Under the pieces are notes generated by a model, which saw only the letters and a list, made by a program, of their open reading frames with translations, ran no database searches and had not been told where the DNA came from. Of a DNA stretch of 64,000 nt, positions 1 to 61,583 are shown piece by piece. The stretch is from Lepidurus packardi. Taxonomy: Eukaryota; Arthropoda; Branchiopoda; Notostraca; Triopsidae. The DNA lies in contig JAKZAN010000051.1 in NCBI GenBank assembly GCA_023053545.1, positions 62,001 through 126,000 on the forward strand. The letters run 5' to 3'. Position 1 is the first letter of the stretch, and every line of letters begins with the position of its first letter. Position numbers and translations under genes: made by a program.

Positions 1-3000
1 CTTACGGACTGAATTAATTCCTTACGGACTGAATTAATTCCTTACGGACTGAATTAATTCATTACGGACTTAATTAAATCCTTACAGACTGAATTAATTC
101 CTTATGGACTTAATTAATTCCGTAAGGAATGAATTAATTAATTACGGACTGAATTAATTCCTTACGGACTGAATTAATTCCTTAATTAATTCCTTACGGA
201 CTGAGTTAATTTCATACGGACTGAATTAATTCATTACGGACTTAATTAATCGATTACGGACTGAATTAATTCCTTACGTACTGAAGTTATTCCTTACGGA
301 CTGAATTAATTCATTACGGACTTAATTAAATCCTTACAGACTAAATTAATTCCTTATGGACTTAATTAATTCCGTAAGGAATGAATTAATTAATTACGGA
401 CTGAAATAATTCCTTACGGACTGAAATAATTCCTTACGGACTGAATTAATTCCTTACGGACTGAATTAATTTCATACGGACTGAATTAATTCATTACGGA
501 CTTAATTAATCGATTACGGACTGAATTAATTCCTTACGTACTGAACTTATTCCTTACTGACTGAATGAATTCCTTACGGACTGAATGAATACCTTACGGA
601 CTGAATTAATTTCATACGGACTGAATTAATTCATTACGGACTTAATTAATTCCTTACGGACTGAATTAATTCCTTACGGACTGAATTAATACCTTACGGA
701 CTGAATTAAACCCTTACGGACTTAATTAATTCCTTACGGACTGAATTAATTCCTTACGGACTGAATTAATCCCTTACGGATTGAATTAAATCCTTACGGA
801 CTGAATTAATTCCTTACGGACTGAATTAATTCCTTACGGACTGAATTAATTCCTTACGGACTGAATTAATTCATTACGGACTTAATTAAATCCTTACAGA
901 CTGAATTAATTCCTTATGGACTTAATTAATTCCGTAAGGAATGAATTAATTAATTACGGACTGAATTAATTCCTTACGGACTGAATTAATTCCTTAATTA
1001 ATTCCTTACGGACTGAGTTAATTTCATACGGACTGAATTAATTCATTACGGACTAAATTAATCGATTACGGACTGAATTAATTCCTTACGTACTGAACTT
1101 ATTGATTACGGACTGAATTTATTCCTTACGGACTTAATTAATTCATTACGGACTGAATTAATTCCTTACGGACTGAATTAATCCCTTACGGATTGAATTA
1201 AATCCTTACGACTGAATTAATTCCTTACGGACTGAATTAATTCCTTACGGACTGAATTAATTCCTTACGGACTGAATTAATTCATTACGGACTTAATTAA
1301 ATCCTTACAGACTGAATTAATTCCTTATGGACTTAATTAATTCCGTAAGGAATGAATTAATTAATTACGGACTGAATTAATTCCTTACGGACTGAATTAA
1401 TTCCTTAATTAATTCCTTACGGACTGAGTTAATTTCATACGGACTGAATTAATTCATTACGGACTTAATTAATCGATTACGGACTGAATTAATTCCTTAC
1501 GTACTGAAGTTATTCCTTACGGACTGAATTAATTCATTACGGACTTAATTAAATCCTTACAGACTAAATTAATTCCTTATGGACTTAATTAATTCCGTAA
1601 GGAATGAATTAATTAATTACGGACTGAAATAATTCCTTACGGACTGAAATAATTCCTTACGGACTGAATTAATTCCTTACGGACTGAATTAATTTCATAC
1701 GGACTGAATTAATTCATTACGGACTTAATTAATCGATTACGGACTGAATTAATTCCTTACGTACTGAACTTATTCCTTACTGACTGAATGAATTCCTTAC
1801 GGACTGAATGAATACCTTACGGACTGAATTAATTTCATACGGACTGAATTAATTCATTACGGACTTAATTAATTCCTTACGGACTGAATTAATTCCTTAC
1901 GGACTGAATTAATACCTTACGGACTGAATTAAACCCTTACGGACTTAATTAATTCCTTACGGACTGAATTAATTCCTTACGGACTGAATTAATCCCTTAC
2001 GGATTGAATTAAATCCTTACGGACTGAATTAATTCCTTACGGACTGAATTAATTCCTTACGGACTGAATTAATTCCTTACGGACTGAATTAATTCATTAC
2101 GGACTTAATTAAATCCTTACAGACTGAATTAATTCCTTATGGACTTAATTAATTCCGTAAGGAATGAATTAATTAATTACGGACTGAATTAATTCCTTAC
2201 GGACTGAATTAATTCCTTAATTAATTCCTTACGGACTGAGTTAATTTCATACGGACTGAATTAATTCATTACGGACTAAATTAATCGATTACGGACTGAA
2301 TTAATTCCTTACGTACTGAACTTATTGATTACGGACTGAATTTATTCCTTACGGACTTAATTAATTCATTACGGACTGAATTAATTCCTTACGGACTGAA
2401 TTAATCCCTTACGGATTGAATTAAATCCTTACGACTGAATTAATTCCTTACGGACTGAATTAATTCCTTACGGACTGAATTAATTCCTTACGGACTGAAT
2501 TAATTCATTACGGACTTAATTAAATCCTTACAGACTGAATTAATTCCTTATGGACTTAATTAATTCCGTAAGGAATGAATTAATTAATTACGGACTGAAT
2601 TAATTCCTTACGGACTGAATTAATTCCTTAATTAATTCCTTACGGACTGAGTTAATTTCATACGGACTGAATTAATTCATTACGGACTTAATTAATCGAT
2701 TACGGACTGAATTAATTCCTTACGTACTGAAGTTATTCCTTACGGACTGAATTAATTCATTACGGACTTAATTAAATCCTTACAGACTAAATTAATTCCT
2801 TATGGACTTAATTAATTCCGTAAGGAATGAATTAATTAATTACGGACTGAAATAATTCCTTACGGACTGAATTAATTCCTTACGGACTGAATTAATTCCT
2901 TACGGACTGAATTAATTTCATACGGACTGAATTAATTCATTACGGACTTAATTAATCGATTACGGACTGAATTAATTCCTTACGTACTGAACTTATTCCT

Positions 3001-3577
3001 TACTGACTGAATGAATTCCTTACGGACTGAATGAATACCTTACGGACTGAATTAATTTCATACGGACTGAATTAATTCATTACGGACTTAATTAATTCCT
3101 TACGGACTGAATTAATTCCTTACGGACTGAATTAATACCTTACGGACTGAATTAAACCCTTACGGACTTAATTAATTCCTTACGGACTGAATTAATTCCT
3201 TACGGACTGAATTAATCCCTTACGGATTGAATTAAATCCTTACGGACTGAATTAATTCCTTACGGACTGAATTAATTCCTTACGGACTGAATTAATTCCT
3301 TACGGACTGAATTAATTCATTACGGACTTAATTAAATCCTTACAGACTGAATTAATTCCTTATGGACTTAATTAATTCCGTAAGGAATGAATTAATTAAT
3401 TACGGACTGAATTAATTCCTTACGGACTGAATTAATTCCTTAATTAATTCCTTACGGACTGAGTTAATTTCATACGGACTGAATTAATTCATTACGGACT
3501 AAATTAATCGATTACGGACTGAATTAATTCCTTACGTACTGAACTTATTGATTACGGACTGAATTTATTCCTTACGG
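1..3577 (+). repeat. 1,223-bp higher-order repeat, about 2.9 copies
   Basis: The CGTAAGGAATG landmark occurs at 121, 373, 933, then 1,344, 1,596, 2,156, then 2,567, 2,819, 3,379. The spacing is 252, 560, 411, repeated, giving an exact period of 1,223 bp (sixty 20-bp monomers plus two 12-bp inserts minus one base). The missing base is visible as CCTTACGACTG at about 1,204 and 2,427. Copies look almost identical: one clear difference is GACTGAAATAATTCC in copies 1 and 2 versus GACTGAATTAATTCC in copy 3 near 2,862. The repeat breaks at about 3,578, where the third copy diverges. The first copy is already under way at the window edge, so the HOR extends to the left. Confidence 0.93.
61..150 (+). 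repeat. Conserved multi-monomer cassette (first example)
   Basis: A run of diagnostic monomers in fixed order: ATTACGGACTTAATTAAAT, CTTACAGACTGAATTAATTC, CTTATGGACTTAATTAATTC, CGTAAGGAATGAATTAATTA, ATTACGGACTGA. The same order recurs many times across the left arm (for example 313-402, 873-962, 1,284-1,373, 2,096-2,185, 14,440-14,529, 23,651-23,740, 39,029-39,118) and in modified form on the right (40,351-40,437; 54,780-54,834). It contains two monomers whose only CpG has become CA or TG, and an imperfect dyad around ATTCC-gtaa-GGAAT. I treat it as the core marker of the higher-order units; any protein-binding role is only a possibility. Confidence 0.85.
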
Positions 3578-5100
3578 ACTGAATTAATTCCTTACGTACT
3601 GAATTAATCCATTACGGACTGAATTATTTCCTTACGTACTGAAGTTATTCCTTACGGACTGAATTAATTCATTACGGACTTAATTAAATCCTTACAGACT
3701 AAATTAATTCCTTATGGACTTAATTAATTCCGTAAGGAATGAATTAATTAATTACGGACTGAAATAATTCCTTACGGACTGAATTAATTCCTTACGGACT
3801 TAATTAATTCCTTACGGACTTAATTAATTCCTTACGGACTGAATTAATTCCTTACGGACTGAATTAGTTCCTTACGGACTGAATTAATTCTTTAAGATTG
3901 ATTGAATTCTTTTCTCACTGAATGAATTCCTTACGGACTGAATGAATTCCTTACGGACTGAATTAATTTCATACGGACTGAATTAATTCATTACGGACTT
4001 AATTAATTCCTTACGGACTGAATTAATTCCTTACGGACTGAATTAATACCTTACGGACTGAATTAAACCCTTACGGACTTAATTAATTCCTTACGGACTG
4101 AATTAATTCCTTACGGACTGAATTAATCCCTTACGGATTGAATTAAATCCTTACGGACTGAATTAATTCCTTACGGACTGAATTAATTCCTTACGGACTG
4201 AATTAATTCCTTACGGACTGAATTAATTCATTACGGACTTAATTAAATCCTTACAGACTGAATTAATTCCTTATGGACTTAATTAATTCCGTAAGGAATG
4301 AATTAATTAATTACGGACTGAATTAATTCCTTACGGACTGAATTAATTCCTTAATTAATTCCTTACGGACTGAGTTAATTTCATACGGACTGAATTAATT
4401 CATTACGGACTTAATTAATCGATTACGGACTGAATTAATTCCTTACGTACTGAAGTTATTCCTTACGGACTGAATTAATTCATTACGGACTTAATTAAAT
4501 CCTTACAGACTAAATTAATTCCTTATGGACTTAATTAATTCCGTAAGGAATGAATTAATTAATTACGGACTGAAATAATTCCTTACGGACTGAATTAATT
4601 CCTTACGGACTGAATTAATTCCTTACGGACTGAATTAATTTCATACGGACTGAATTAATTCATTACGGACTTAATTAATCGATTACGGACTGAATTAATT
4701 CCTTACGTACTGAACTTATTCCTTACGGACTGAATTAATTCCTTACGGACTGAATTAATTCCTTACGGACTAAATTAATTCATTACGGACTTAATTAAAT
4801 CCTTACAGACTGAATTAATTCCTTATGGACTTAATTAATTCATTTCGAACTGAATTAATTATTTACGGACTGAATTAATTCTTTACGGACTGAATTAATT
4901 CCTTACTGACTGAATTAATTCCTTACGGACTGAATTAATTCCTTACGGACTGAATTAATTCCTTACGGTCTGAATTAATTCCGTACGGATTTTATTAATT
5001 CCTTACGGACTTAAATTAATTCATTACGGACTTAATTAATCCATTACGGACTGAATTATTTCCTTACGTACTGAAATTATTCCTTACGGACTGAATTAAT

Positions 5101-6100
5101 TCATTACGGACTTAATTAAATCCTTACAGACTAAATTAATTCCTTATGGACTTAATTAATTCCGTAAGGAATGAATGAATTAATTACGGACTGAAATAAT
5201 TCCTTACGGAATGAATTAATTCCTTAGGGACTGCATTAATTCCTTACGAACTGAATTAATTCCTTACGGACTGAATTAATTCCTTACGGACTGAATTAAT
5301 TCCTTACTGACTGAATTAATTCCTTACGGACTGAATTAATTCCTTACGGACTGAATTAATTCCTTACTGTCTGAATAAATTCCGTACGGATTTTATTAAT
5401 TCCTTACGGACTGAATTAATTCATTACGGACTTAATTAATCCATTACGGACTGAATTAATTCCTTACGTACTGAACTTATTCCTTACGGACTGAATTAAT
5501 TCCTTACGGACTGAATTAATTCCTTACGTACTGAATTAATCCATTACGGACTGAATTAATTCCTTTCTTACTGAATTAATTCCTTACGGACTGAATGAAT
5601 TCATTACGGACTTAATTAAATCCTTACAGACTAAATTAATTCCTTATGGACTTAATTAATTCCGTAAGGAATGAATGAATTAATTACGGACTGAAATAAT
5701 TCCTTACGGAATGAATTAATTCCTTAGGGACTGCATTAATTCCTTACGAACTGAATTAATTCCTTACGGACTGAATTAATTCCTTACGGACTGAATTAAT
5801 TCCTTACTGACTGAATTAATTCCTTACGGACTGAATTAATTCCTTACGGACTGAATTAATTCCTTACTGTCTGAATAAATTCCGTACGGATTTTATTAAT
5901 TCCTTACGGACTGAATTAATTCATTACGGACTTAATTAATCCATTACGGACTGAATTAATTCCTTACGTACTGAACTTATTCCTTACGGACTGAATTAAT
6001 TCCTTACGGACTGAATTAATTCCTTACGTACTGAATTAATCCATTACGGACTGAATTAATTCCTTTCTTACTGAATTAATTCCTTACGGACTGAATGAAT
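5101..6100 (+). repeat. 500-bp tandem duplication (25 monomers)
   Basis: Lines 5,101-5,600 and 5,601-6,100 match in every segment I compared, including rare variants such as TTAGGGACTGCATTAAT, TTACTGTCTGAATAAATTCC, CCGTACGGATTTTATT and CCTTTCTTACTG. The copies part company at 6,101, where the second continues into CCTTACGGAATG rather than CATTACGGACTT. Identity without visible changes implies a very recent unequal exchange or replication-slippage event, or an assembly duplication. Confidence 0.92.
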
Positions 6101-6302
6101 TCCTTACGGAATGAATTAATTTCATACGGACTGAATTAATTCCTTACGGACTGAATTAATATATTACGGACTGAATTAATACCTTACGGACTGAATTAAT
6201 TCCTTACGGACTTAATTAATTCCTTACGGACTGAATTAATTCCTTACGGACTGAATTAGTTCCTTACGGACTGAATTAGTTCCTTACGGACTGAATTAAT
6301 TC

Positions 6303-9300
6303 TTTAAGATTGATTGAATTCTTTTCACACTGAAGGAATTCCTTACGGACTGAATGAATTTCATACGGACTGAATTAATTCATTACGGACTTAATTAATC
6401 CATTACGGACTGAATTAATTCCTTACGGACTGAACTTATTCCTTACGGACTGAATGAATTCCTTACGGACTGAATGAATTCCTTACGGACTGAATTAATT
6501 TCATACGAACTGAATTAATTCATTACGGACTGAATTAATCCATTACGGACTGAATTAATTCCTTACGTACTGGACTTATTCCTTACGGATTGAATTAATT
6601 CCTTACGGACTGAATTAATTCCTTATGGACTTAATTAATTCCGTAAGGAATGAATTAATTAATTACGGACTGAAATAATTCCTTACGGACTGAATTAATT
6701 CCTTACGGACTGAATTAATTCCTTACGGACTGAATTAATTTCATACGGACTGAATTAATTCATTACGGACTTAATTAATCGATTACGGACTGAATTAATT
6801 CCTTACGTACTGAACTTATTCCTTACGGACTGAATTAATTCCTTACGGACTGAATTAATTCCTTACGGACTGAATTAATTCATTACGGACTTAATTAAAT
6901 CCTTACAGACTGAATTAATTCCTTATGGACTTAATTAATTCATTTCGAACTGAATTAATTATTTACGGACTGAATTAATTCATTACGGACTTAATTAATC
7001 CATTACGGACTGAATTAATTCCTTACGTACTGAACTTATTCCTTACGGACTGAATTAATTCCTTACGGACTGAACTAATTCCTTTCTTACTGAATTAATT
7101 CCTTACGGACTGAATGAATTCCTTACGGACTGAATTAATTTCATACGGACTGAATTAATTCCTTACGGACTGAATTAATACCTTACGGACTGAATTAATA
7201 CCTTACGGACTGAATTAATTCCTTACGGACTTAATTAATTCCTTACGGACTGAATTAATTCCTTACGGACTGAATTAGTTCCTTACGGACTGAATTAATT
7301 CTTTAAGATTGATTGAATTCTTTTCACATTGAATGAATTCCTTACGGACTGAATTAATTCATTACGGACTGAATTAATCCATTACGGACTGAATTAATTC
7401 CTTACGTACTGAACTTATTCCTTACGGATTGAATTAATTCCTTACGGACTGAATTAATTCCTTACGTACTGAATTAATCCATTACGGACTGAATTATTTC
7501 CTTACGTACTGAAGTTATTCCTTACGGACTGAATTAATTCATTACGGACTTAATTAAATCCTTACAGACTAAATTAATTCCTTATGGACTTAATTAATTC
7601 CTTACGGACTGAATTAATTCCTTACGGACTTAATTAATTCCTTACGGACTTAATTAATTCCTTACGGACTGAATTAATTCCTTACGGACTGAATTAGTTC
7701 CTTACGGACTGAATTAATTCTTTAAGATTGATTGAATTCTTTTCTCACTGAATGAATTCCTTACGGACTGAATTAATTCCTTACGGACTGAATTAATTTC
7801 AAACGGACTGAATTAATTACTTGCGGACTGAATGAATTCCTTACGGACTGAATGAATTCCTTACGGACTGAATTAATTTCATACGTACTGAATTAATTCT
7901 CTACGGACTTAATTAATCCATTACGGACTGAATTAATTCCTTACGTACTGAACTTATTCCTTACGGACTGAATGAATTCCTTACGGACTGAATGAATTCC
8001 TTACGGATTGAATTAATTTCATACGGATTGAACTAATTCATTACGGACTTAATTAATCCATTACGGACTGAATTAATTCCTTACGTACTGAACTTATTCC
8101 TTACGGACTGAATTAATTCCTTACGGACTGAATTAATTCCTTAAGGACTGAATTAATTCCTTACGGACTGAATTAATTCATTTCGGACTTAATTAAATCC
8201 TTACAGACTGAATTAATTCCTTACGGACTGAATTAATTCCTTACTGACTGAATTAATTCCTTACGGACTGAATTAATTCCTTACGGACTGAATTAATTCC
8301 TTACTGTCTGAATAAATTCCGTACGGATTTTATTAATTCCTTACGGACTGAATTAATTCATTACGGACTTAATTAATCCATTACGGACTGAATTAATTCC
8401 TTTCTTACTGAATTAATTCCTTACGGACTGAATGAATTCCTTACGGACTGAATTAATTTCATACGGACTGAATTAATTCCTTACGGACTGAATTAATACC
8501 TTACGGACTGAATTAATACCTTACGGACTGAATTAATTCCTTACGGACTGAATTAATTCCTTACGGACTTAATTAATTCCTTACGGACTGAATTAATTCC
8601 TTACGGACTGAATTAGTTCCTTACGGACTGAATTAATTCTTTAAGATTGATTGAATTCTTTTCACACTGAATGAATTCCTTACGGACTGAATGAATTTCA
8701 TACGGACTGAATTAATTCATTACGGACTGAATTAATTCCTTACGGACTGAACTTATTCCTTACTGACTGAAAGAATTCCTTACGGAATGAATGAATTCCT
8801 TACGGACTGAATTAATTTCATACGGACTGAATTAATTCATTACGGACTGAATTATTTCCTTACGTACTGAAGTTATTCCTTACGGACTGAATTAATTCAT
8901 TACGGACTTAATTAAATCCTTACAGACTAAATTAATTCCTTATGGACTTAATTAATTCTTTACGGAATGAATTAATTCCTTACGGACTTAATTAATTCCT
9001 TACGGACTTAATTAATTCCTTACGGACTGAATTAATTCCTTACGGACTGAATTAGTTCCTTACGGACTGAATTAATTCTTTAGGATTGATTGAATTCTTT
9101 TCTCACTGAATGAATTCCTTACGGACTGAATGAATTCCTTACGGACTGAATTAATTTTATACGGACTGAATTAATTCCTTGCGGACTGAATGAATTCCTT
9201 ACGGACTGAATGAATTCCTTACGGACTGAATTAATTTCATACGTACTGAATTAATTCTCTACGGACTTAATTAATCCATTACGGACTGAATTAATTCCTT

Positions 9301-12300
9301 ACGTACTGAACTTATTCCTTACGGACTGAATTAATTCCTTACGGACTGAATGAATTCCTTACGGATTGAATTAATTTCATACGGATTGAATTAATTCATT
9401 ACGGACTTAATTAATCCATTACGGACTGAATTAATTCCTTACGTACTGAACTTATTCCTTACGGACTGAATTAATTCCTTACGGACTGAATTAATTCCTT
9501 AAGGACTGAATTAATTCCTTACGGACTGAATTAATTCATTACGGACTTAATTAAATCCTTACAGACTGAATTAATTCCTTACGGACTGAATTAATTCCTT
9601 ACTGACTGAAATAATTCCTTACGGACTGAATTAATTCCTTAGGGACTGAATTAATTCCTTACGAACTGAATTAATTCCTTACGTACTGAATTAATCCATT
9701 ACGGACTGAATTAATTCCTTTCTTACTGAATTAATTCCTTACGTACTGAAATTATTCCTTACGGACTGAATTAATTCATTACGGACTTAATTAAATCCTT
9801 ACAGACTAAATTAATTCCTTATGGACTTAATTAATTCCGTAAGGAATGAATGAATTAATTACGGACTGAAATAATTCCTTACGGACTGAATTAATTAATT
9901 AGGGACTGAATTAATTCCTTACGAACTGAATTAATTCCTTACGGACTGAATTAATTCCTTACGGACTGAATTAATTCCTTACTGACTGAATTAATTCCTT
10001 ACGGACTGAATTAATTCCTTACGGACTGAATTAATTCCTTACTGTCTGAATAAATTCCGTACGGATTTTATTAATTCCTTACGGACTGAATTAATTCCTT
10101 ACGGACTGAATTAATTCCTTACGTACTGAATTAATCCATTACGGACTGAATTAATTCCTTTCTTACTGAATTAATTCCTTACGGACTGAATGAATTCCTT
10201 ACGGACTGAATTAATTTCATACGGACTGAATTAATTCCTTACGGACTGAATTAATACCTTACGGACTGAATTAATACCTTACGGACTGAATTAATTCCTT
10301 ACGGACTTAATTAATTCCTTACGGACTGAATTAATTCCTTACGGACTGAATTAGTTCCTTACGGACTGAATTAATTCTTTAAGATTGATTGAATTCTTTT
10401 CACACTTAATGAATTCCTTACGGACTGAATGAATTTCATACGGACTGAATTAATTCATTACGGACTTAATTAATCCATTACGGACTGAATTAATTCCTTA
10501 CGGACTGAACTTATTCCTTACGGACTGAATGAATTCCTTACGGACTGAATGAATTCCTTACGGACTGAATTAATTTCATACGGACTGAATTAATTCATTA
10601 CGGACTGAATTAATCCATTACGGACTGAATTATTTCCTTACGTACTGAAGTTATTCCTTACGGACTGAATTAATTCATTACGGACTTAATTAAATCCTTA
10701 CAGACTAAATTAATTCCTTATGGACTTAATTAATTCCTTACGGACTTAATTAATTCCTTACGGACTTAATTAATTCCTTACGGACTGAATTAATTCCTTA
10801 CGGACTGAATTAGTTCCTTACGGACTTAATTAATTCTTTAAGATTGATTGAATTCTTTTCTCACTGAATGAATTCCTTACGGACTGAATGAATTCCTTAC
10901 GGACTGAATTAATTTCATACGGACTGAATTAATTCCTTGCGGACTGAATGAATTCCTTACGGACTGAATGAATTCCTTACGGACTGAATTAATTCCTTAC
11001 GGACTGAATTAATTCATTACGGACTTAATTAAATCCTTACAGACTGAATTAATTCCTTATGGACTTAATTAAAATAATTCCTTACGGACTGAATTAATTC
11101 CTTACGGACTGAATTAATTCCTTACGGACTGAATTAATTCCTTACGGACTGAATTAATTCCTTACGTACTGAACTTATTCCTTACATACTGAATTAATTC
11201 CATACGGACTGAATTAATTCCTTACGGACTGAATTAATACCTTCCGGACTGAATTAAATCCTTACGGACTGAATTAATTCCTTACGGACTGAATTAATTC
11301 CTTACGGACTGAATTAATTCCTTACTGACTGAATTAATTCATTACGGACTTAATTAAATCCTTACAGACTAAATTAATTCCTTATGGACTAAATTAATTC
11401 CGTAAGGAATGAATTAATTAATTACGGACTGAAATATTTCCTTACGTACTGAATTAATTCCTTACGGACTTAATTAATTCCTTACGGACTGAATTAATTC
11501 CTTACGGACTGAATTACATCCTCACGGACAGAATTAATTCCTTACGGACTGAATTAACTCCTTACGGACTGAATTAATTCCTTACGGACTGAATTAATTC
11601 CTTACGGACTGAATTAATACCTTACGGATTGAATTAAATCCTTACGGACTGAATTAATTCCTTACGGACTGAATTAATTCCTTACGGACTGAATTAATTC
11701 CTTACGGACTGAATTAATTCATTACGGACTTAATTAAATCCTTACAGACTGAATTAATTCCTTATGGACTTAATTAATTCCGTAAGGAATGAATTAATTA
11801 ATTACGGACTGAAATAATTCCTTACGGACTGAATTAATTCCTTACGGACTGAATTATTTCCTTACGGACTGAATTAATACCTTACGGACTGAATTACATC
11901 CTCACGGACAGAATTAATTCCTTACGGACTGAATTAACTCCTTACGGACTGAATTAATTCCTTACGGACTGAATTAATTCCTTACGGACTGAATTAATAC
12001 CTTACGGATTGAATTAAATCCTTACGGACTGAATTAATTCCTTACGGACTGAATTAATTCCTTACGGACTGAATTAATTCCTTACGGACTGAATTAATTC
12101 ATTACGGACTTAATTAAATCCTTACAGACTGAATTAATTCCTTATGGACTTAATTAATTCCGTAAGGAATGAATTAATTAATTACGGACTGAAATAATTC
12201 CTTACGGACTGAATTAATTCCTTACGGACTGAATTATTTCCTTAATTAATTCCTTACGGACTGAGTTAATTTCATACGGACTGAATTAATTCATTACGGA

Positions 12301-13598
12301 CTTAATTAATCGATTACGGACTGAATTAATTCCTTACGTACTGAACTTATTCCTTACGGACTGAATTAATTCCTTACGGACTGAATTAATTCCTTACGGA
12401 CTGAATTAATTCCTTACGGACTGAATTAATTCCTTACGGACTGAATTAATTCCTTACGGACTGAATTAATTCCTTACGGACTGAATTAATACCTTACGGA
12501 CTGAATTAAATCCTTACGGACTGAATTAATTCCTTACGGACTGAATTAATTCCTTACGGACTGAATTAAATCCTTACGGACTGAATTAATTCATTACGGA
12601 CTTAATTAAATCCTTACAGACTGAATTAATTCCTTATGGACTTAATTAAAATAATTCCTTACTGACTGAATTAATTCCTTACGGACTGAATTAATTCCTT
12701 ACGGACTGAATTAATTCCTTACTGTCTGAATAAATTCCGTACGGATTTTATTAATTCCTTACGGACTGAATTAATTCCTTACGGACTGAATTAATTCCTT
12801 ACGTACTGAATTAATCCATTACGGACTGAATTAATTCCTTTCTTACTGAATTAATTCCTTACGGACTGAATGAATTCCTTACGGACTGAATTAATTTCAT
12901 ACGGACTGAATTAATTCCTTACGGACTGAATTAATACCTTACGGACTGAATTAATACCTTACGGACTGAATTAATTCCTTACGGACTTAATTAATTCCTT
13001 ACGGACTGAATTAATTCCTTACGGACTGAATTAGTTCCTTACGGACTGAATTAATTCTTTAAGATTGATTGAATTCTTTTCACACTGAATGAATTCCTTA
13101 CGGACTGAATGAATTTCATACGGACTGAATTAATTCATTACGGACTTAATTAATCCATTACGGACTGAATTAATTCCTTACGGACTGAACTTATTCCTTA
13201 CGGACTGAATGAATTCCTTACGGACTGAATGAATTCCTTACGGACTGAATTAATTTCATACGGACTGAATTAATTCATTACGGACTGAATTAATCCATTA
13301 CGGACTGAATTAATTCCTTACGTACTGAACTTATTCCTTACGGATTGAATTAATTCCTTACGGACTGAATTAATTCCTTACGTACTGAATTAATCCATTA
13401 CGGACTGAATTATTTCCTTACGTACTGAAGTTATTCCTTACGGACTGAATTAATTCATTACGGACTTAATTAAATCCTTACAGACTAAATTAATTCCTTA
13501 CGGACTGAATTTAATTCCTTACGGACTGAATTAGTTCCTTACGGACTTAATTAATTCTTTAAGATTGATTGAATTCTTTTCTCACTGAATGAATTCCT
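6303..13598 (+). repeat. Paired-marker HOR with stepwise spacing
   Basis: Two versions of the divergent marker alternate: TTTTCACA(C/T) at 6,303, 7,302, 8,640, 10,378 and 13,058; TTTTCTCAC at 7,721, 9,079, 10,837 and 13,558. Spacing within each CACA-to-CTCA pair is 419, 439, 459 and 500 bp, differing by one or two monomers each step. Pair-to-pair spacing is 1,338, 1,738 and 2,680 bp. One marker (9,079) reads TTTAGGATTGATTG, intermediate between left-arm and right-arm types. This is the same ancestral unit altered by gain or loss of whole monomers. Confidence 0.8.
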
Positions 13599-39594: not shown

Positions 39595-39694
39595 NNNNNN
39601 NNNNNNNNNNNNNNNNNNNNNNNNNNNNNNNNNNNNNNNNNNNNNNNNNNNNNNNNNNNNNNNNNNNNNNNNNNNNNNNNNNNNNNNNNNNNNN
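39595..39694. other. Assembly gap (100 N)
   Basis: Exactly 100 N, the usual placeholder for a gap of unknown size. Satellite monomers run into it on both sides (TTATG before, TGAATTAATTC after), so the missing DNA is probably more of the array. The marker variants differ on the two sides, so a substantial amount may be missing, or the join may bring together distant parts of the array. Confidence 0.98.
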
Positions 39695-42600: not shown

Positions 42601-45500
42601 CGGTCTGAATTAATTCCGTACGGATTTTATTAAGTTCTTACGGACTGAATTAATTCCTTACGAACTGAATTAATTCCTTACGGACTGAATTAATTCTTTA
42701 CGGACTGAATTAATTCCTTAAAGACTGAATTAATTCCTTATGGACTTAATTAGTTCCGTAAGGAATGAATTAATTAATTACGGACTGAAATAATTCCTTA
42801 CGGACTGAATTAATATCTTACGGACTGAATTAATTCCTTACGGACTGAATTAATTCCTTACGGACTGAATTAATTCCTTACGGACTGAATTAATTCCTTA
42901 CGGACTGAATTTATACCTTACGGACTGAATGAAATCCTTACGGACTGAATTAATTCCTTACGGACTGAATTAATTCCTTACGGACTGAATTAATTCCTTA
43001 CTGACTGAATTAATTCCTTACGGACTGAATTAATTCCTTACGGACTGAATTAATTCCTTACGGACTTAATTAATTCCTTACGGTCTGAATTAATTCCGTA
43101 CGGATTTTATTAATTCCTTACGGACTGAATTAATTCCTTACGAACTGAATTAATTCCTTACGGACTGAATTAATTCTTTACGGACTGAATTAATTCCTTA
43201 TGGACTTAATTAGTTCCGTAAGGAATGAATTAATTAATTACGGACTGAAATAATTCCCTACGGACTGAATAATTAATTACGGACTGAAATAATTCCTTAC
43301 GGACTGAATTAATTCCTTACGGACTGAGTTAATTCCTTACGGACTGAATTAATTTCATACGGACTGAATTAATTCATTACGGACTTAATTAATCGATTAC
43401 GGACTGAATTAATTCCTTACGGACTGAATTAATTCCTTACTGACTGAATTAATTCCTTACGGACTGAATTAATTCCTTACGGACTGAATTAATTTCATAC
43501 GGACTGAATTAATTCCTTACGGACTTAATTAATCGATTACGGACTGAGTTAATTCCTTACGGACTGAATTAATTCCTTAATTAATTCCTTACGGACTGAA
43601 TTATTTTCATACGGACTGAATTAATTCATTACGGACTTAATTAATCGATTACGGACTTAATTAATCCATTACAGACTGAATTAATTAATTACGGACTGAA
43701 TTAATTCCTTACGGACTGAATTAATTCCTTACGGACTGAATTAATTCCTTACGTACTTAATTAATTCCTTACGGTCTGAATTAATTCCGTACGGATTTTA
43801 TTAATTCCTTACGGACTGAATTAATTCCGTACGGATTTTATTAATTCCTTACGGACTGAATAAATTCCTTACGAACTGAATTAATTCCGTACGGATTTTA
43901 TTAATTCCTTACGGACTGAATTTATTCATTACGGACTTAATTAATCCATTACAGACTGAATTAATTCCTTACGGACTGAATTAATTCCTTACGGACTGAA
44001 TTAATACCTTACGGACTGAATTAAATCCTTACGGACTGAATTAATTCCTTACGGACTGAATTAATTCCTTACGGACTGAATTAATTCCTTACTGACTGAA
44101 TTAAATCCTTACTGACTGAATTAATTCCTTACGGACTGAATTAATTCCTTTCGGACTGAATTAATTCCTTACGGACTGAATTAATTCCTTTCGGACTGAA
44201 TTAATTCCTTACGGACTGAATTAATTCCTTACGGACTTAATTAATTCCTTACGTACTTTATTAATTCCTTACGGTCTGAATTAATTCCGTACGGATTTTA
44301 TTAATTCCTTACGGACTGAATTAATTCCGTACGGATTTTATTAATTCCTTACGGACTGAATAAATTCCTTACGAACTGAATTAATTCCGTACGGATTTTA
44401 TTAATTCCTTACGGACTGAATAAATTCCTTACGGACTGAATTAATTCATTACGGACTTAATTAATCGATTACGGACTGAATTAATTCCTTACGTACTGAA
44501 CTTATTCCTTACGGACTGAATTAATTCCTTACGGACTGAATTAATTCCTTACGGACTTAATTAATTCCTTACGGACTGAATTAATACCTGACGGACTGAA
44601 TTAAATCCTTACGGACTGAATTAATTCCTTACGGACTGAATTAATTCCTTACGGACTGAATTAATTCCTTACGGACTGAATTAATTCCTTACTGACTGAA
44701 TTAATTCCTTACGGACTGAATTAATTCCTTACAGACTGAATTAATTCCTTACGGACTGAATTAATTCCTTTCGGACTTAATTAATTCCTTACGTACTTTA
44801 TTAATTCCTTACGGTCTGAATTAATTCCGTACGGATTTTATTAATTCCTTACCGACTGAATAAATTCCTTACGAACTGAATTAATTCCGTACGGATTTTA
44901 TTAATTCCTTACGGACTGAAGAAATTCCTTACGAACTGAATTAATTCCGTACGGATTTTATTAATTCCTTACGGACTGAATTTATTCATTACGGACTTAA
45001 TTAATCCATTACAGACTGAAATAATTCCTTACGGACTGAATTAATTCCTTACGGACTGAATTAATTCCTTACGGACTGAATTAAATCCTTAATTAATTCC
45101 TTACGGACTGAATTAATTCCTTACGGACTGAATTAATACCTTACTGACTGAATTAAATCCTTACGGACTGAATGAATTCCTTACGGACTGAATTAATTAA
45201 TTACGGACTGAATTAATTCCTTACTGACTGAATTAAATCCTTACGGACTGAATTAATTCCTTACGGACTGAATTAGTTCCTTACGGTCTGAATTAATTCC
45301 GTACGGATTTTATTAATTCCTTACGGACTGAATTAATTCATTACGGACTTAATTAATCCATTACGGACTGAATTATTTCCTTATGTACTGAAGTTATTCC
45401 TTACGGACTGAATTAATTCCTTACGTACTGAAATAATTCCTTACGGACTGAATTAATTCCTTACGGACTGAATTAATTCCTTACGGACTGAATTAATTCC

Positions 45501-51500: not shown

Positions 51501-54500
51501 TTTATTAATTCCTTACGGACTGAATTAATTCCTTACGATCTGAATTAATTCCTTACTGACTGAATTAATTCCTTACGGACTGAATGAATTCCTTACGGAC
51601 TGAATTAATTCCTTACGGACTGAATTAATTCCTTAATTAATTCCTTACGGACTGAATTAATTTCATCCGGACTGAATTAATTCATTACGCACTTAATTAA
51701 TCCATTACGGACTGAATTATTTCCTCACGTATTGAAGTTATTCCTTACGGACTGAATTAATTTCATACGGACTGAATTAATTCATTACGGACTGAATTAA
51801 TTCATTACGGACTGAATTAATTCCTTACGGACTGAATTAATTCCTTACGGACTTAATTAATTCCTTACGTACTTTATTAATTCCTTACGGTCTGAATTAA
51901 TTCCGTACGGATTTTATTAATTCCTTACGGACTGAATTAATTCCGTACGGATTTTATTAATTCCTTACGGACTGAATAAATTCCTTACGAACTGAATTAA
52001 TTCCGTACGGATTTTATTAATTCCTTACGGACTGAATAAATTCCTTACGGACTGAATTAATTCATTACGGACTTAATTAATCGATTACGGACTGAATTAA
52101 TTCCTTACGTACTGAACTTATTCCTTACGGACTGAATTAATTCCTTACGGACTGAATTAATTCCTTACGGACTGAATTAATTCCTTACGGACTGAATTAA
52201 TACCTTACGGACTGAATTAAATCCTTACGGACTGAATTAATTCCTTACGGACTGAATTAATTCCTTACGGACTGAATTAATTCCTTACGGACTGAATTAA
52301 TTCCTTACTGACTGAATTAATTCCTTACGGACTGAATTAATTCCTTACAGACTGAATTAATTCCTTACGGACTGAATTAATTCCGTACGGATTTTATTAA
52401 TTCCTTACGGACTGAATAAATTCCTTACGAACTGAATTAATTCCGTACGGATTTTATTAATTCCTTACGGACTGAAGAAATTCCTTACGAACTGAATTAA
52501 TTCCGTACGGATTTTATTAATTCCTTACGGACTGAATTTATTCATTACGGACTTAATTAATCCATTACAGACTGAAATAATTCCTTACGGACTGAATTAA
52601 TTCCTTACGGACTGAATTAATTCCTTACGGACTGAATTAAATCCTTAATTAATTCCTTACGGACTGAATTAATTCCTTACGGACTGAATTAATACCTTAC
52701 TGACTGAATTAAATCCTTACGGACTGAATGAATTCCTTACGGACTGAATTAATTAATTACGGACTGAATTAATTCCTTACTGACTGAATTAAATCCTTAC
52801 GGACTGAATTAATTCCTTACGGACTGAATTAGTTCCTTACGGTCTGAATTAATTCCGTACGGATTTTATTAATTCCTTACGGACTGAATAAATTCCTTAC
52901 GAACTGAATTAATTCCGTACGGATTTTATTAATTCCTTACGGACTGAAGAAATTCCTTACGAACTGAATTAATTCCGTACGGATTTTATTAATTCCTTAC
53001 GGACTGAATTTATTCATTACGGACTTAATTAATCCATTACAGACTGAAATAATTCCTTACGGACTGAATTAATTCCTTACGGACTGAATTAATTCCTTAC
53101 GGACTGAATTAAATCCTTAATTAATTCCTTACGGACTGAATTAATTCCTTACGGACTGAATTAATACCTTACTGACTGAATTAAATCCTTACGGACTGAA
53201 TGAATTCCTTACGGACTGAATTAATTAATTACGGACTGAATTAATTCCTTACTGACTGAATTAAATCCTTACGGACTGAATTAATTCCTTACGGACTGAA
53301 TTAGTTCCTTACGGACTGAATTAATTCCTTACTGACTGAATTAAATCCTTACGGACTGAATTAATTCCTTACGGACTGAATTAATTCCTTACGGACTGAA
53401 TTAATTCCTTAATTAATTCCTTACGGACTGAATTAATTTCATACGGACTGAATTAATTCATTACGGACTTAATTAATCGATTACGGACTGAATTAATTCC
53501 TTACGTACTGAACTTATTCCTTACGGACTGAATTAATTCCTTACGGACTGAATTAATTCCTTACGGACTGAATTAATTCCTTACGGACTGAATTAATTCC
53601 TTACGGACTGAATTAATTCCTTACGGACTGAATTAATACCTTACGGACTGAATGAAATCCTTACGGACTGAATTAATTCCTTACGGACTGAATTAATTCC
53701 TTACGGACTGAATTAATTCCTTACTGACTGAATTAATTCCTTACGGACTTAATTAATTCCTTACGTACTTAATTAATTCCTTACGGTCTGAATTAATTCC
53801 GTACGGATTTTATTAATTCCTTACGGACTGAATTAATTCCTTACGAACTGAATTAATTCCTTACGGACCGAATTAATACCTTACGGACTTAATTAATTCC
53901 TTACGAACTGAATTAATTCCTTACGGACTTAATTAATTCCTTACGGACTTAATTAATTCCTTACGTACTTAATTAATTCCTTACGGTCTGAATTAATTCC
54001 GTACGGATTTAATTAATTCCTTACGGACTGAATTAATTCCTTACGGACTGAATTAATTTATTATGGACTTAATTAATTCCGTAAGGAATGAATGAATTAA
54101 TTACGGACTGAAATAATTCCTTACGGACTGAATTAATTCCTTACGAACTGAATTAATTCCTTACGGACTGAATTAATTCCTTACGGACTGAATTAATTCC
54201 TTACGGACTGAATTAGTTCCTTACATACTGAATTAATTCTTTAGGATTTATTGAATTCCTTTCTTACTGAATTAACTACTTACGGACTGAATGAATTCCT
54301 TACGGACTGAATTAATTCCTTACGGAATTAATTAATTCCTTACGGACTGAATTAATTCCTTACGAACTGAATTAATTCCTTACGGACTTAATTAATTCCT
54401 TACGGACTGAATGAATTCCTTACGGACTGAATTAATTCCTTACGGACTGAATTAATTCCTTAATTCCTTAATTAATTCCTTACGGACTGAATTAATTTCA

Positions 54501-55300
54501 TCCGGACTGAATTAATTCATTACGCACTTAATTAATCCATTACGGACTAAATTATTTCCTTACGTATTGAAGTTATTCCTTACGGACTGAATTAATTCCT
54601 TACGGACTGAATTAATTCCTTACGGACTGAATTAAAACCTTACGGACTGAATTAATTCTTTACGGATTTAATTAATTCCTTACGGACTTAATTAATTCCT
54701 TACGTACTTAATTAATTCCTTACGGTCTGAATTAATTCCGTACGGATTAAATTAATTCCTTACGGACTGAATTAATTCATTATGGACTTAATTAATTCCG
54801 TAAGGAATGAATGAATTAATTACGGACTGAAATAATTCCTTACGGACTGAATTAATTCCTTACGAACTGAATTAATTCCTTACGGACTGAATTAATTCCT
54901 TACGGACTGAATTAATTCCTTACGGACTGAATTAGTTCCTTACGGACTGAATTAATTCTTTAGGATTTATTGAATTCCTTTCTTACTGAATTAACTACTT
55001 ACGGACTGAATGAATTCCTTACGGACTTAATTAATTCCTTACGGAATTAATTAATTCCTTACGTACTTAATTAATTCCTTACGGTCTGAATTAATTCCGT
55101 ACGGATTTTATTAATTCCTTACGGACTGAATTAATTCCTTACGATCTGAATTAATTCCTTACTGACTGAATTAATTCCTTACGGACTGAATGAATTCCTT
55201 ACGGACTGAATTAATTCCTTACGGACTGAATTAATTCCTTAATTAATTCCTTACGGACTGAATTAATTTCATCCGGACTGAATTAATTCATTACGCACTT
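45501..55300 (+). repeat. Segment pair 7,908 bp apart flanking an HOR
   Basis: About 45,500-47,400 matches about 53,410-55,300. The TTAATTAATT landmark (45,501 and 53,409) and the TTTAGGATTTATT marker (46,332 and 54,240; then 47,051 and 54,959) all keep an offset of 7,908. A private TTACATACTGAATT monomer precedes the first marker in both. The right copy lost one monomer near 54,640 and gained one near 54,900, so the total stays the same. Between them sit the 2.1-2.2-kb HOR units, suggesting that amplification expanded the interior after or during duplication of the flank. Confidence 0.85.
47051..53400 (+). repeat. 2.1-2.2-kb HOR, three units, with nested 472-bp duplication
   Basis: Units begin at the markers 47,051, 49,126 and 51,373 (lengths 2,075 and 2,247; the third is open-ended). 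All three share CTTTCTTACAGAATTAAC, whereas the other right-arm markers have TTACTGAATTAAC. They also share CCTCACGTATTGAAG, TTACGTACTTTATT and repeated CCGTACGGATTTTATT. Units 2 and 3 each carry an additional 472-bp tandem duplication (GAATAAATTCCTTACGAACTG at 50,151 and 50,623; 52,418 and 52,890) that unit 1 lacks, so units 2 and 3 share a more recent ancestor. A related unit with the same TTACGTACTTTATT block starts near 44,220. Confidence 0.88.
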
Positions 55301-55559
55301 AATTAATCCATTACGGACTGAATTATTTCCTCACGTATTGAAGTTATTCCTTACGGACTGAATTAATTTCATACGGACTGAATTAATTCATTACGGACTG
55401 AATTAATTCATTACGGACTTAATTAATTCCTTACGTACTTAATTAATTCCTTACGGTCTGAATTAATTCCGTTCGGATTTTATTAATTCCTTACGGACTG
55501 AATTAATTCCTTACTTACTGAATTAATTCCTTACGGACTGAATTAATTCCTTACGGACT

Positions 55560-58500
55560 GAATTAATTCCTTACGGACTGAATTAATTCCTTAATTAATT
55601 CCTTAATTCCTTAATTAATTCCTTAATTAATTGCTTACGGACTGAATTAATTTCATCCGGACTGAATTAATTCATTACGCACTTAATTAATCCATTACGG
55701 ACTAAATTATTTCCTTACGTATTGAAGTTATTCCTTACGGACTGAATTAATTCCTTACGGACTGAATTAATTCCTTACGGACTGAATTAATACCTTACGG
55801 ACTTAATTATTTCCTTACGGACTGAATTAATTCTTTACGGACTTAATTAATTCCTTACGGTCTTAATTAATTCCTTACGTACTTAATTAATTCCTTACGG
55901 TCTGAATTAATTCCGTACGGATTTAATTAATTCCTTTCGGACTGAATTAATTCCTTACGGACTGAATTAATTCATTATGGACTTAATTAATTCCGTAAGG
56001 AATGAATGAATTAATTACGGACTGAAATAATTCCTTACGGACTGAATTAATTCCTTACGAACTGAATTAATTCCTTACGGACTGAATTAATTCCTTACGG
56101 ACTGAATTAATTCCTTACGGACTGAATTAGTTCCTTACGGACTGAATTAATTCTTTAGGATTTATTGAATTCCTTTCTTACTGAATTAACTACTTACGGA
56201 CTGAATGAATTCCTTACGGACTGAATTAATTCCTTACGGAATTAATTAATTCCTTACGGACTGAATTAATTCCTTACGAACTGAATTAATTCCTTACTGA
56301 CTGAATTAATTCCTTACGGACTGAATGAATTCCTTACGGACTGAATTAATTCCTTACGGACTGAATTAATTCCTTAATTCCTTAATTAATTCCTTACGGA
56401 CTGAATTAATTTCATCCGGACTGAATTAATTCATTACGCACTTAATTAATCCATTACGGACTAAATTATTTCCTTACGTATTGAAGTTATTCCTTACGGA
56501 CTGAATTAATTCCTTACGGATTGAATTAATTCCTTACGGACTGAATTAAAACCTTACGGACTTAATTAATTCCTTACGGACTGAATTAATTCTTTACGGA
56601 TTTAATTAATTCCTTACGGACTTAATTAATTCCTTACGTACTTAATTAATTCCTTACGGTCTGAATTAATTCCGTACGGATTTAATTAATTCCTTACGGA
56701 CTGAATTAATTCATTATGGACTTAATTAATTCCGTAAGGAATGAATGAATTAATTACGGACTGAAATAATTCCTTACGGACTGGATTAATTCCTTACGAA
56801 CTGAACTAATTCCTTACGGACTGAATTAATTCCTTACGGACTGAATTAATTCCTTACGGACTGAATTAGTTCCTTACGGACTGAATTAATTCTTTAGGAT
56901 TTATTGAATTCCTTTCTTACTGAATTAACTACTTACGGACTGAATGAATTCCTTACGGACTGAATTAATTCCTTACGGAATTAATTAATTCCTTACGTAC
57001 TTAATTAATTCCTTACGGTCTGAATTAATTCCGTACGGATTTTATTAATTCCTTACGGACTGAATTAATTCCTTACTGACTGAATTAATTCCTTACGGAC
57101 TGAATTAATTCCTTACGGACTGAATTAATTCCTTACGGACTGAATTAATTCCTTAATTCCTTAATTAATTCCTTAATTCCTTAATTAATTCCTTACGGAC
57201 TGAATTAATTTCATCCGGACTGAATTAATTCATTACGCACTTCATTAATCCATTACGGACTAAATTATTTCCTTACGTATTGAAGTTATTCCTTACGGAC
57301 TGAATTAATTCCTTACGGACTGAATTAATTCCTTACGGACTGAATTAATACCTTACGGACTTAATTAATTCCTTACGGACTGAATTAATTCTTTACGGAC
57401 TTAATTAATTCCTTACGGACTTAATTAATTTCTTACGTACTTAATTAATTCCTTACGGTCTGAATTAATTCCGTACGGATTTTATTAATTCCTTACGGAC
57501 TGAATTAATTCCTTACGATCTGAATTAATTCCTTACTGACTGAATTAATTCCTTACGGACTGAATGAATTCCTTACGGACTGAATTAATTCCTTACGGAC
57601 TGAATTAATTCCTTAATTAATTCCTTACGGACTGAATTAATTTCATCCGGACTGAATTAATTCATTACGCACTTAATTAATCCATTACGGACTGAATTAT
57701 TTCCTCACGTATTGAAGTTATTCCTTACGGACTGAATTAATTTCATACGGACTGAATTAATTCATTACGGACTGAATTAATTCATTACGGACTTAATTAA
57801 TTCCTTACGTACTTAATTAATTCCTTACGGTCTGAATTAATTCCGTTCGGATTTTATTAATTCCTTACGGACTGAATTAATTCCTTACTGACTGAATTAA
57901 TTCCTTACGGACTGAATTAATTCCTTACGGACTGAATTAATTCCTTACGGACTGAATTAATTCCTTAATTCCTTAATTAATTCCTTAATTCCTTAATTAA
58001 TTCCTTACGGACTGAATTAATTTCATCCGGACTGAATTAATTCATTACGCACTTCATTAATCCATTACGGACTAAATTATTTCCTTACGTATTGAAGTTA
58101 TTCCTTACGGACTGAATTAATTCCTTACGGACTGAATTAATTCCTTACGGACTGAATTAATACCTTACGGACTTAATTAATTCCTTACGGACTGAATTAA
58201 TTCTTTACGGACTTAATTAATTCCTTACGGACTTAATTAATTTCTTACGTACTTAATTAATTCCTTACGGTCTGAATTAATTCCGTACGGATTTAATTAA
58301 TTCCTTACGGACTGAATTAATTCCTTACGGACTGAATTAATTCATTATGGACTTAATTAATTCCGTAAGGAATGAATGAATTAATTACGGACTGAAATAA
58401 TTCCTTACGGACTGAATTAATTCCTTACGCACTGAATTAATTCCTTACGGACTGAATTAATTCCTTACGGACTGAATTAATTCCTTAGGGACTGAATTAG

Positions 58501-61330
58501 TTCCTTACGGACTGAATTAATTCTTTAGGATTTATTGAATTCCTTTCTTACTGAATTAACTACTTACGGACTGAATGAATTCCTTACGGACTGAATTAAT
58601 TCCTTACGGAATTAATTAATTCCTTACGGACTGAATTAATTCCTTACGAACTGAATTAATTCCTTACGGACTTAATTAATTCCTTACGGACTGAATGAAT
58701 TCCTTACGGACTGAATTAATTCCTTACGGACTGAATTAATTCCTTAATTCCTTAATTAATTCCTTACGGACTGAATTAATTTCATCCGGACTGAATTAAT
58801 TCATTACGCACTTAATTAATCCATTACGGACTGAATTATTTCCTCACGTATTGAAGTTATTCCTTACGGACTGAATTAATTTCATACGGACTGAATTAAT
58901 TCATTACGGACTGAATTAATTCATTACGGACTTAATTAATTCCTTACGTACTTAATTAATTCCTTACGGTCTGAATTAATTCCGTTCGGATTTTATTAAT
59001 TCCTTACGGACTGAATTAATTCCTTACTGACTGAATTAATTCCTTACGGACTGAATTAATTCCTTACGGACTGAATTAATTCCTTACGGACTGAATTAAT
59101 TCCTTAATTCCTTAATTAATTCCTTAATTCCTTAATTAATTCCTTACGGACTGAATTAATTTCATCCGGACTGAATTAATTCATTACGCACTTAATTAAT
59201 CCATTACGGACTGAATTATTTCCTCACGTATTGAAGTTATTCCTTACGGACTGAATTAATTTCATACGGACTGAATTAATTCATTACGGACTGAATTAAT
59301 TCATTACGGACTTAATTAATTCCTTACGTACTTAATTAATTCCTTACGGTCTGAATTAATTCCGTTCGGATTTTATTAATTCCTTACGGACTGAATTAAT
59401 TCCTTACTGACTGAATTAATTCCTTACGGACTGAATTAATTCCTTACGGACTGAATTAATTCCTTACGGACTGAATTAATTCCTTAATTAATTCCTTAAT
59501 TCCTTAATTAATTCCTTAATTAATTGCTTACGGACTGAATTAATTTCATCCGGACTGAATTAATTCATTACGCACTTAATTAATCCATTACGGACTAAAT
59601 TATTTCCTTACGTATTGAAGTTATTCCTTACGGACTGAATTAATTCCTTACGGACTGAATTAATTCCTTACGGACTGAATTAATACCTTACGGACTTAAT
59701 TATTTCCTTACGGACTGAATTAATTCTTTACGGACTTAATTAATTCCTTACGGTCTTAATTAATTCCTTACGTACTTAATTAATTCCTTACGGTCTGAAT
59801 TAATTCCGTACGGATTTAATTAATTCCTTTCGGACTGAATTAATTCCTTACGGACTGAATTAATTCATTATGGACTTAATTAATTCCGTAAGGAATGAAT
59901 GAATTAATTACGGACTGAAATAATTCCTTACGGACTGAATTAATTCCTTACGAACTGAATTAATTCCTTACGGACTGAATTAATTCCTTACGGACTGAAT
60001 TAATTCCTTACGGACTGAATTAGTTCCTTACGGACTGAATTAATTCCTTAATTCCTTAATTAATTCCTTACGGACTGAATTAATTTCATCCGGACTGAAT
60101 TAATTCATTACGCACTTAATTAATCCATTACGGACTAAATTATTTCCTTACGTATTGAAGTTATTCCTTACGGACTGAATTAATTCCTTACGGACTGAAT
60201 TAATTCCTTACGGACTGAATTGAAACCTTACGGACTTAATTAATTCCTTACGGACTGAATTAATTCTTTACGGATTTAATTAATTCCTTACGGACTTAAT
60301 TAATTCCTTACGTACTTAATTAATTCCTTACGGTCTGAATTAATTCCGTACGGATTTAATTAATTCCTTACGGACTGAATTAATTCATTATGGACTTAAT
60401 TAATTCCGTAAGGAATGAATGAATTAATTACGGACTGAAATAATTCCTTACGGACTGAATTAATTCCTTACGAACTGAATTAATTCCTTACGGACTGAAT
60501 TAATTCCTTACGGACTGAATTAATTCCTTACGGACTGAATTAGTTCCTTACGGACTGAATTAATTCTTTAGGATTTATTGAATTCCTTTCTTACTGAATT
60601 AACTACTTACGGACTGAATGAATTCCTTACGGACTGAATTAATTCCTTACGGAATTAATTAATTCCTTACGTACTTAATTAATTCCTTACGGTCTGAATT
60701 AATTCCGTACGGATTTTATTAATTCCTTACGGACTGAATTAATTCCTTACGGATTTTATTAATTCCTTACGGACTGAATTAATTCCTTACGATCTGAATT
60801 AATTCCTTACTGACTGAATTAATTCCTTACGGACTGAATGAATTCCTTACGGACTGAATTAATTCCTTACGGACTGAATTAATTCCTTAATTAATTCCTT
60901 ACGGACTGAATTAATTTCATCCGGACTGAATTAATTCATTACGCACTTAATTAATCCATTACGGACTGAATTATTTCCTCACGTATTGAAGTTATTCCTT
61001 ACTGACTGAATTAATTTCATACGGACTGAATTAATTCATTACGGACTGAATTAATTCATTACGGACTTAATTAATTCCTTACGTACTTAATTAATTCCTT
61101 ACGGTCTGAATTAATTCCGTTCGGATTTTATTAATTCCTTAAGGACTGAATTAATTCCTTACTGACTGAATTAATTCCTTACGGACTGAATTAATTCCTT
61201 ACGGACTGAATTAATTCCTTACGGACTGAATTAATTCCTTAATTAATTCCTTAATTCCTTAATTAATTCCTTAATTAATTGCTTACGGACTGAATTAATT
61301 TCATCCGGACTGAATTAATTCATTACGCAC
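55560..61330 (+). repeat. Right-end block with truncated-monomer runs
   Basis: Runs of 8-12-bp partial monomers (CCTTAATT CCTTAATTAATT) recur at about 55,590, 56,370, 57,150, 57,965, 58,740, 59,100, 59,485, 60,045 and 61,235. Linked variants are TTGCTTACGG at 55,631, 59,524 and 61,279; TTACGGTCTTAATT at about 55,860 and 59,755; and ACTTCATTAATCC at 57,241 and 58,053 (812 bp apart). A 380-bp unit is tandem near 58,740-59,500. Unit length is irregular here, unlike the exact periods at the left end of the window. Confidence 0.8.
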
Positions 61331-61552
61331 TTAATTAATCCATTACGGACTGAATTAATTCCTTACGGACTGAATTAATTCCTTACGGACTGAATTAATA
61401 CCTTACGGACTTAATTAATTCCTTACGGACTGAATTAATTCTTTACGGACTTAATTAATTCCTTACGGACTTAATTAATTCCTTACGTACTTAATTAATT
61501 CCTTACGGTCTGAATTAATTCCGTACGGATTTAATTAATTCCTTACGGACTT

Positions 61553-61554
<2 letters not shown>

Positions 61555-61583
<29 letters not shown>
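61555..61583 (-). other. Poly(A) tail of the retrotransposon (29 T on + strand)
   Basis: Twenty-nine uninterrupted T on the plus strand, the poly(A) tail of the minus-strand element. The first two T can equally belong to the satellite monomer (TTAATT), so the true tail is 27-29 nt. It begins 24 nt downstream (in element sense) of an AATAAA signal. A pure, long tail is typical of a recent target-primed insertion. Confidence 0.93.

Follow-up and report, generated by a model that had tools for sequence, protein, structure and literature searches.

Two described satellite systems are among those closest to the repeat considered here. The available part of PMC9070824 sets out the non-B-DNA hypothesis of Kasinathan and Henikoff for centromeric satellites with short dyads (inverted repeats of <10 bp) and contrasts dyad-rich centromeres with those bearing CENP-B boxes, only the Y centromere being dyad-rich in Drosophila melanogaster. 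The accessible text of PMC13081366 describes TmSat1 and TmSat2 of Tribolium madens, related satellites of large putative (peri)centromeric regions with short inverted repeats and changes of orientation. Here we analyze a window of 64,000 nucleotides from Lepidurus packardi (C40:62001-126000, C40 being contig JAKZAN010000051.1 of assembly GCA_023053545.1, which comprises 108.56 Mb in 344 contigs), whose positions 1-61556 are filled by a 20-bp satellite, sat1, with the consensus CTTACGGACTGAATTAATTC. Like the short-dyad centromeric satellites of PMC9070824, as far as the available text describes them, sat1 combines dense short inverted repeats with the absence of a CENP-B box in the window; unlike them, it has a dyad that follows from one monomer, and about half of its monomers lack a perfect palindrome. 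With the Tribolium pair, within the accessible text, it shares the presence of a related satellite in large putative (peri)centromeric regions, short inverted repeats and arrays that apparently change orientation, but it has 20-bp monomers in place of subunits of ~110 bp. The sat1 monomer and three other forms of it found no match in the literature searched, and the abstract openings listed for branchiopod and springtail genomes, satellite DNA and 20-bp satellites hold no recognizable report of the repeat. sat1 is new and abundant, yet as a short satellite it belongs to a known kind. No other satellite seen is more abundant, and it probably lies in heterochromatin at a single repeat-rich end of several chromosomes, with the pericentromere or acrocentric short arms as the likeliest setting; on one scaffold it stands beside ribosomal DNA (rDNA).

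First, the 20-bp tandem array described for positions 1-61556 is real. Tandem Repeats Finder, applied to the first 12 kb only, returned a period of 20 with 602.9 copies and 85% matches; wraparound alignment of positions 1-61560 gave 92.7% identity to the consensus over 61,471 aligned bases, with 100 undetermined bases (N) counted as mismatches; and exact monomers, absent from 100 dinucleotide shuffles, number 896 on the + strand and likewise 896 on both strands combined, so that none is reversed. Long head-to-tail arrays, high copy number and local homogenization mark sat1 as satellite DNA. Its 3,091 monomers in the window fall into 220 types. The consensus holds a single CpG and the perfect palindrome GAATTAATTC, and the proposed design of a CpG block followed by a 10-bp palindrome is correct for the consensus, but not for every monomer: among 2,978 gapless monomers, GAATTAATTC is intact in 47.7% and CTTACGGACT in 52.6%, while 2,487 have exactly one CpG. 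Nor does AseI have a site in nearly every monomer, as had been expected, since ATTAAT occurs 2,348 times, or 0.76 per monomer. Variation is greatest at positions 11 (G to T, 18%) and 1 (C to A, 14.5%) and least at 10 and 3, and the two monomer halves are equally conserved (0.934 vs 0.928). At the CpG, C-to-T and C-to-A changes are equally frequent (3.2% each), and G-to-A (4.6%) and G-to-T (5.0%) are similar; there is therefore no sign of methylation-driven decay, which homogenization could however mask. A recurring variant, CCGTAAGGAAT, is the exact reverse complement of the consensus ATTCCTTACGG; it occurs, e.g., at window 120-130 and at other places on C40, and 204 copies of it were counted over the 156 kb read from that contig. 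Its core could have arisen through two substitutions or through a micro-inversion.

The array is longer than the window and also less continuous than its original description as 61 kb without interruption. Upstream it extends to the first base of C40, and its longest run without N or loss of 20-bp periodicity, judged with 200-bp smoothing under which short inserts would go undetected, is C40:1-101594 (101.6 kb). The right-hand end of this gap-free run forms the first variant domain of the window (1-39594, + strand), which 100 N (39595-39694) join to a second (39695-61556, + strand), before a long interspersed nuclear element (LINE) ends the array at 61557. Across the gap, the sharing of variant trigrams falls to 0.06-0.12, whereas seven split points elsewhere gave 0.35-0.77 and an eighth, at 44868, 5 kb to the right of the gap, gave 0.20/0.40 (the comparison windows of split points nearer the gap overlap it). 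The sat1 halves on either side of the 100 N are different domains. In the array, maximal exact repeats of 200 bp or more form 299 pairs (214 inside the left domain, 70 inside the right and 15 across the gap), the longest of 1,648 bp with starts at 1 and 1224, which would fit repeated local segmental amplification. Variant blocks recur at many block lengths without a fixed higher-order period, the exact recurrence of non-consensus monomers being at most 5.9% at any lag from 1 to 399 monomers (best lag 118). Repeats of the alpha-satellite higher-order type likewise have variant monomers in recurring blocks and local homogenization; in contrast to that type, the blocks of sat1 lack a regular period and the window lacks a CENP-B box. 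The gap with its shift of variant set might suggest an artefact of assembly in the array or in its length, as might the 12 of 30 contigs sized that are exact multiples of 1,000 bases, as expected of cut pieces; against more than 93,000 exact monomers and the 101.6-kb run without N, such an origin is most improbable.

Second, the copy number and placement of sat1 point to heterochromatin. The assembly contains 93,548 exact monomers (52,943 in forward and 40,605 in reverse orientation), and extrapolation from local exact-monomer densities gives a total of ~6.4-11.2 Mb. Where sat1 was seen on the six large scaffolds (C1-C6, 10.7-14.0 Mb), one end was never more than ~0.5 Mb away; the remainder was seen on smaller contigs. 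Probes located it at the end of C1, at the starts of C2 and C4, and on C3 at 10-15 kb, where a second satellite precedes it; on C1 (14.05 Mb), the first exact monomer among the matches listed lies at 13,957,343. Among the first 100 of 482 six-fold tandem matches, which run in contig order and pass beyond C6 to reach C35, those on large scaffolds lie only at C1 13.99 Mb and at C4 0-126 kb and 348 kb, and the eight-fold pattern (all 79 matches) occurs at C1 13.99 Mb, at C4 23 kb and on 14 smaller contigs. Just before the terminal sat1 block of C1, at 13.943-13.950 Mb, lie 18S, 5.8S and 28S, the last to model position 2,341 of 3,401. This rDNA copy (C1:13.9428-13.9528 Mb) is interrupted: near model position 2,340, its 28S is broken by an R2-like open frame that matches reverse transcriptase and begins in zinc-finger-like sequence. 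Another contig, C30, starts in 28S and holds much sat1. sat1 stands beside other satellites, rDNA and retroelements, as pericentromeric heterochromatin would. Owing to its high copy number, its end placement on four of the six large scaffolds and these neighbors, the heterochromatic and perhaps pericentromeric part of the role originally predicted for the array fits. In such a setting, sat1 would be packaged as constitutive heterochromatin and maintained by unequal exchange or segmental amplification of blocks of ~0.2-1.6 kb, and retroelements would enter its arrays.

Several observations weigh against the pericentromeric or short-arm assignment. No sat1 was found on C5 and C6 at the probed points or in the tandem patterns listed, and on C2 it appeared in probes only, without tandem-pattern matches among those listed. 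Much of it lies on smaller contigs without a known chromosomal place, the scaffolds may contain misjoins, and on C1 the interrupted 28S is followed by 4,574 N that conceal the junction of rDNA and sat1. Furthermore, a sister satellite (sat3, at 2.41-2.88 Mb) and COX1-like mitochondrial inserts (at 2.95-3.01 Mb) lie 11 Mb from sat1 on C1.

Given this layout, it is worth considering whether sat1 is instead subtelomeric or nucleolus-organizer heterochromatin, with centromeres marked by sat3 and its nearby mitochondrial inserts, as at C1 2.4-3.0 Mb and C4 0.55-1.17 Mb. Both the rDNA beside sat1 on C1 and C30 and the proximity of sat3 to COX1-like fragments on C1 and C4 lend this alternative some weight, and we regard it as a tentative possibility. 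No TTAGG array, however, was seen adjoining sat1, either in the window or among the 60 seven-fold TTAGG matches, all of which fall at C1 10.69 Mb, C1 13.28 Mb, the end of C3 and C86; the assembly contains no sat1-telomere junction that would speak for or against the alternative. Moreover, sat1 and sat3 occur inside the same 0.2-1.2 Mb on C4 and C49. The C86 array (57001-58600) sits in the middle of a 114-kb contig and not at its end. The regions C1:2.41-3.01 Mb and C4:0.55-1.53 Mb, with sat3 and several COX1-like fragments, could be true pericentromeres or misjoins.

Three other short-period satellites lie nearby. sat3, CTGACTTAATTCATGAATTA, is a related 20-bp satellite, identical to sat1 at 14 of 20 places (P 0.004 against shuffles), with 604 + 462 exact three-unit matches; among the 100 matches listed per search, it occurs at C1 2.41-2.88 Mb, at C4 0.55-1.17 Mb and on smaller contigs. 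sat2 has an 11-bp unit, GAAATTTCATT, with longer periods of 45, 123, 168 and 291 bp and 379 + 843 exact 46-mers, and lies at the starts of C3 and C6 and at C4 519-525 kb (among the 100 matches listed of 1,222). The diverged sat4, of ~10 bp (CTGGTTTAAA), turned up on C49 (50-110 kb) and on C36 (300 kb), and C49 brings sat3, sat4 and sat1 together.

Third, the dyad-rich makeup of sat1 raises the question of whether CenH3 nucleosomes sit on sat1 itself as the centromeric DNA, with the non-B structure of its palindromes as an aid. None of the other satellites seen is as abundant, and on four of the six large scaffolds sat1 lies close to one end; the opposite end bears TTAGG repeats on C3 and a tandem repeat with AACCTAACC motifs on C4. 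Its dyad density, 0.46-0.52 in four stretches, exceeds the 0.17-0.22 of their shuffles, while a LINE stretch and two rDNA-region stretches used as controls (0.17-0.19) resemble theirs (0.16-0.17). The window also contains no match to the CENP-B-box motif TTCGNNNNANNCGGG, as would suit the contrast of dyad-rich and CENP-B-box centromeres drawn in the available part of PMC9070824. Nevertheless, a tandem array inherits the dyad of its single monomer, so that the fair test is one draw (P 0.039), the array displays no general compensatory change, and the dyad-rich centromere reported for D. melanogaster in that text is confined to the Y. The C1 layout, with sat1 at the far end from sat3 and the COX1-like inserts, argues against sat1 as a centromere mark. 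Altogether, a centromeric sat1 seems unlikely, and we continue to favor its assignment to pericentromeric or short-arm heterochromatin. A CENP-C search gave no match and is uninformative, its control having matched only bacteria and archaea, below the cut-off.

In the palindrome itself, five symmetric pairs gave 72 double changes, only 12 of them complementary, without general compensation. All 12 fall at pair 14-17 (22 double changes there; 3.3 complementary expected), and 10 of them may be one amplified type (10 copies of A............A..T...); pair 11-20, with 47 double changes, has 0 complementary ones versus 20.1 expected. Selection on the palindrome within the array was accordingly rejected as an explanation, both on this result and on the equal conservation of the two halves. 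The expected bending by phased AT tracts is not supported either: from wedge parameters, the predicted curvature of tandem sat1 consensus is 0.085 deg/bp, not above the mean of 0.141 for shuffled tandem monomers (P 0.70). Single-strand folding lies far below that of shuffles for a perfect sat1 tetramer (z -7.8), a sat3 stretch (-9.9) and a sat2 stretch (-9.5); the difference is smaller for two stretches of real sat1 (-3.9 and -3.0, the latter reached by 4 of 200 shuffles) and is not seen for a LINE control (-0.6). At a guess from sequence, palindromes of the sat1 type may allow hairpins or cruciforms under stress.

What keeps the palindromes of interest is a design, palindromic and of helical period, common to four satellites of one genome. 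The longest perfect palindrome in the circular unit measures 10 bp in sat1, 14 in sat3, 10 in sat2 and 8 in sat4 (shuffle P 0.039, 0.007, 0.125 and 0.103, respectively), and those for the periods of ~10, 11, 20 and 20 bp are GTTTAAAC, TGAAATTTCA, GAATTAATTC and TAATTCATGAATTA, respectively; although related, sat1 and sat3 carry different palindromes, that of sat3 being longer. Combining the four by Fisher's method gives P 0.0015, which becomes 0.019 when sat3 is left out and 0.005 when sat1 is; these values are suggestive only, because the units were picked after being seen. An intriguing, if rather doubtful, idea is that a structural rule and not a sequence has been kept at these chromosome ends, each unit spanning nearly one or two helical turns around a palindrome of 8-14 bp. 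If true, sequence would turn over while a helically spaced dyad stayed, and strand-folding repeats would seem to be favored in centromere-proximal heterochromatin, whether by selection or by a bias of replication or repair. Short-period satellites in an apparently small crustacean genome, remote from the usual models, would help to test whether the dyad rather than the sequence is the shared (peri)centromeric feature. Chromatin profiling by satellite type would be straightforward in so compact a genome, with its four satellites of this design, its arrays linked to rDNA and its points of retroelement entry.

Fourth, retroelements have entered the array. That it lacks transposon insertions, as first described, applies within the sat1 span of the window; yet the span ends in a LINE, and another element follows farther on. 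The insertion point is the AATT at the center of the sat1 palindrome (61553-61556), and 61557-64000 (minus strand) hold the 3′ part of the LINE, comprising poly(A) (the T run at 61555-61583), the 3′ untranslated region and 726 codons of the second frame (reverse transcriptase). The element continues to ~C40:128458, near which sat1 resumes, ~4.9 kb on. The 12 bases ACGGACTTAATT flank it on both sides, as a target-site duplication would, the right copy ending at C40:128469. Its first frame has 460 codons and a zinc-knuckle match slightly below the cut-off; its second, of 1,045 codons, matches endonuclease and reverse transcriptase. About 13 kb past the LINE, an element with a 1,185-codon open frame matches gag, reverse transcriptase, RNase H and integrase, in a domain order that would make it Ty3/Gypsy-like.

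The phase of the junctions made it attractive to view the LINE as a satellite-specific retrotransposon, comparable to retrotransposons whose targets are rDNA or telomere repeats. The 100 matches listed of 131 include 17 distinct poly(T) junctions, whatever the element, and 15 of these lie at the palindrome center, GACT(G/T)AATT|, some of which may be copies made by array amplification, and a LINE endonuclease of the kind found, preferring T^A steps, would yield the same phase. The 3′ end of the LINE has 41 matches, and the flanks fetched for 16 of them comprise 6 in sat1, 3 in sat3, 6 in other DNA (including C4 3.10 Mb, C1 4.06 Mb and C1 11.69 Mb) and 1 that is uninformative. Because 6 of the 16 lie outside both satellites, the LINE is a general one; satellite specificity, dropped on these insertions in unique DNA, is very unlikely.

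Finally, the single orientation ascribed to sat1 holds in the window and in the 156 kb of C40 read, where the reversed form AGTCCGTAAG was not found, but not on C4, C30 and C1. On C4, probes gave the forward direction at 0-120, 300 and 400 kb and the reverse direction at 160, 200 and 500 kb; C30, from probes and pattern matches, is reverse to 280 kb, forward at 300-620 kb and reverse from 694 kb. Only one flip was read without N, at C1 14.0148-14.0160 Mb, and the others could come from misjoins. Compared with the macro-dyad type of Tribolium, most flips of sat1 are thus seen at probes only, and the sole N-free one stands between non-satellite copies. There (C1 ~14014880-14016060), a ~50-bp non-satellite sequence that begins with TGTTGTAAATATTTGATCG is present as two direct copies, which enclose a 1-kb block of opposite-direction sat1.

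Other features of the assembly were noted in passing. A mitochondrial fragment has, as read by eye, the order tRNA-cox1-tRNA-cox2; this order, the TTAGG repeats and the paired globin exons together suggest a branchiopod crustacean. COX1-family genes without internal stops under table 11, at C52:160321-161757 and C214:60865-62079, are probably from bacteria in the sample. C120 begins (1-120) in a CCCCAA hexamer repeat, which is of the ciliate telomere type and perhaps comes from an associated ciliate. At C3:8.583-8.698 Mb and C1:8.303 Mb, there are five pairs of globin exons with starts 546-611 bases apart, as in two-domain hemoglobins.

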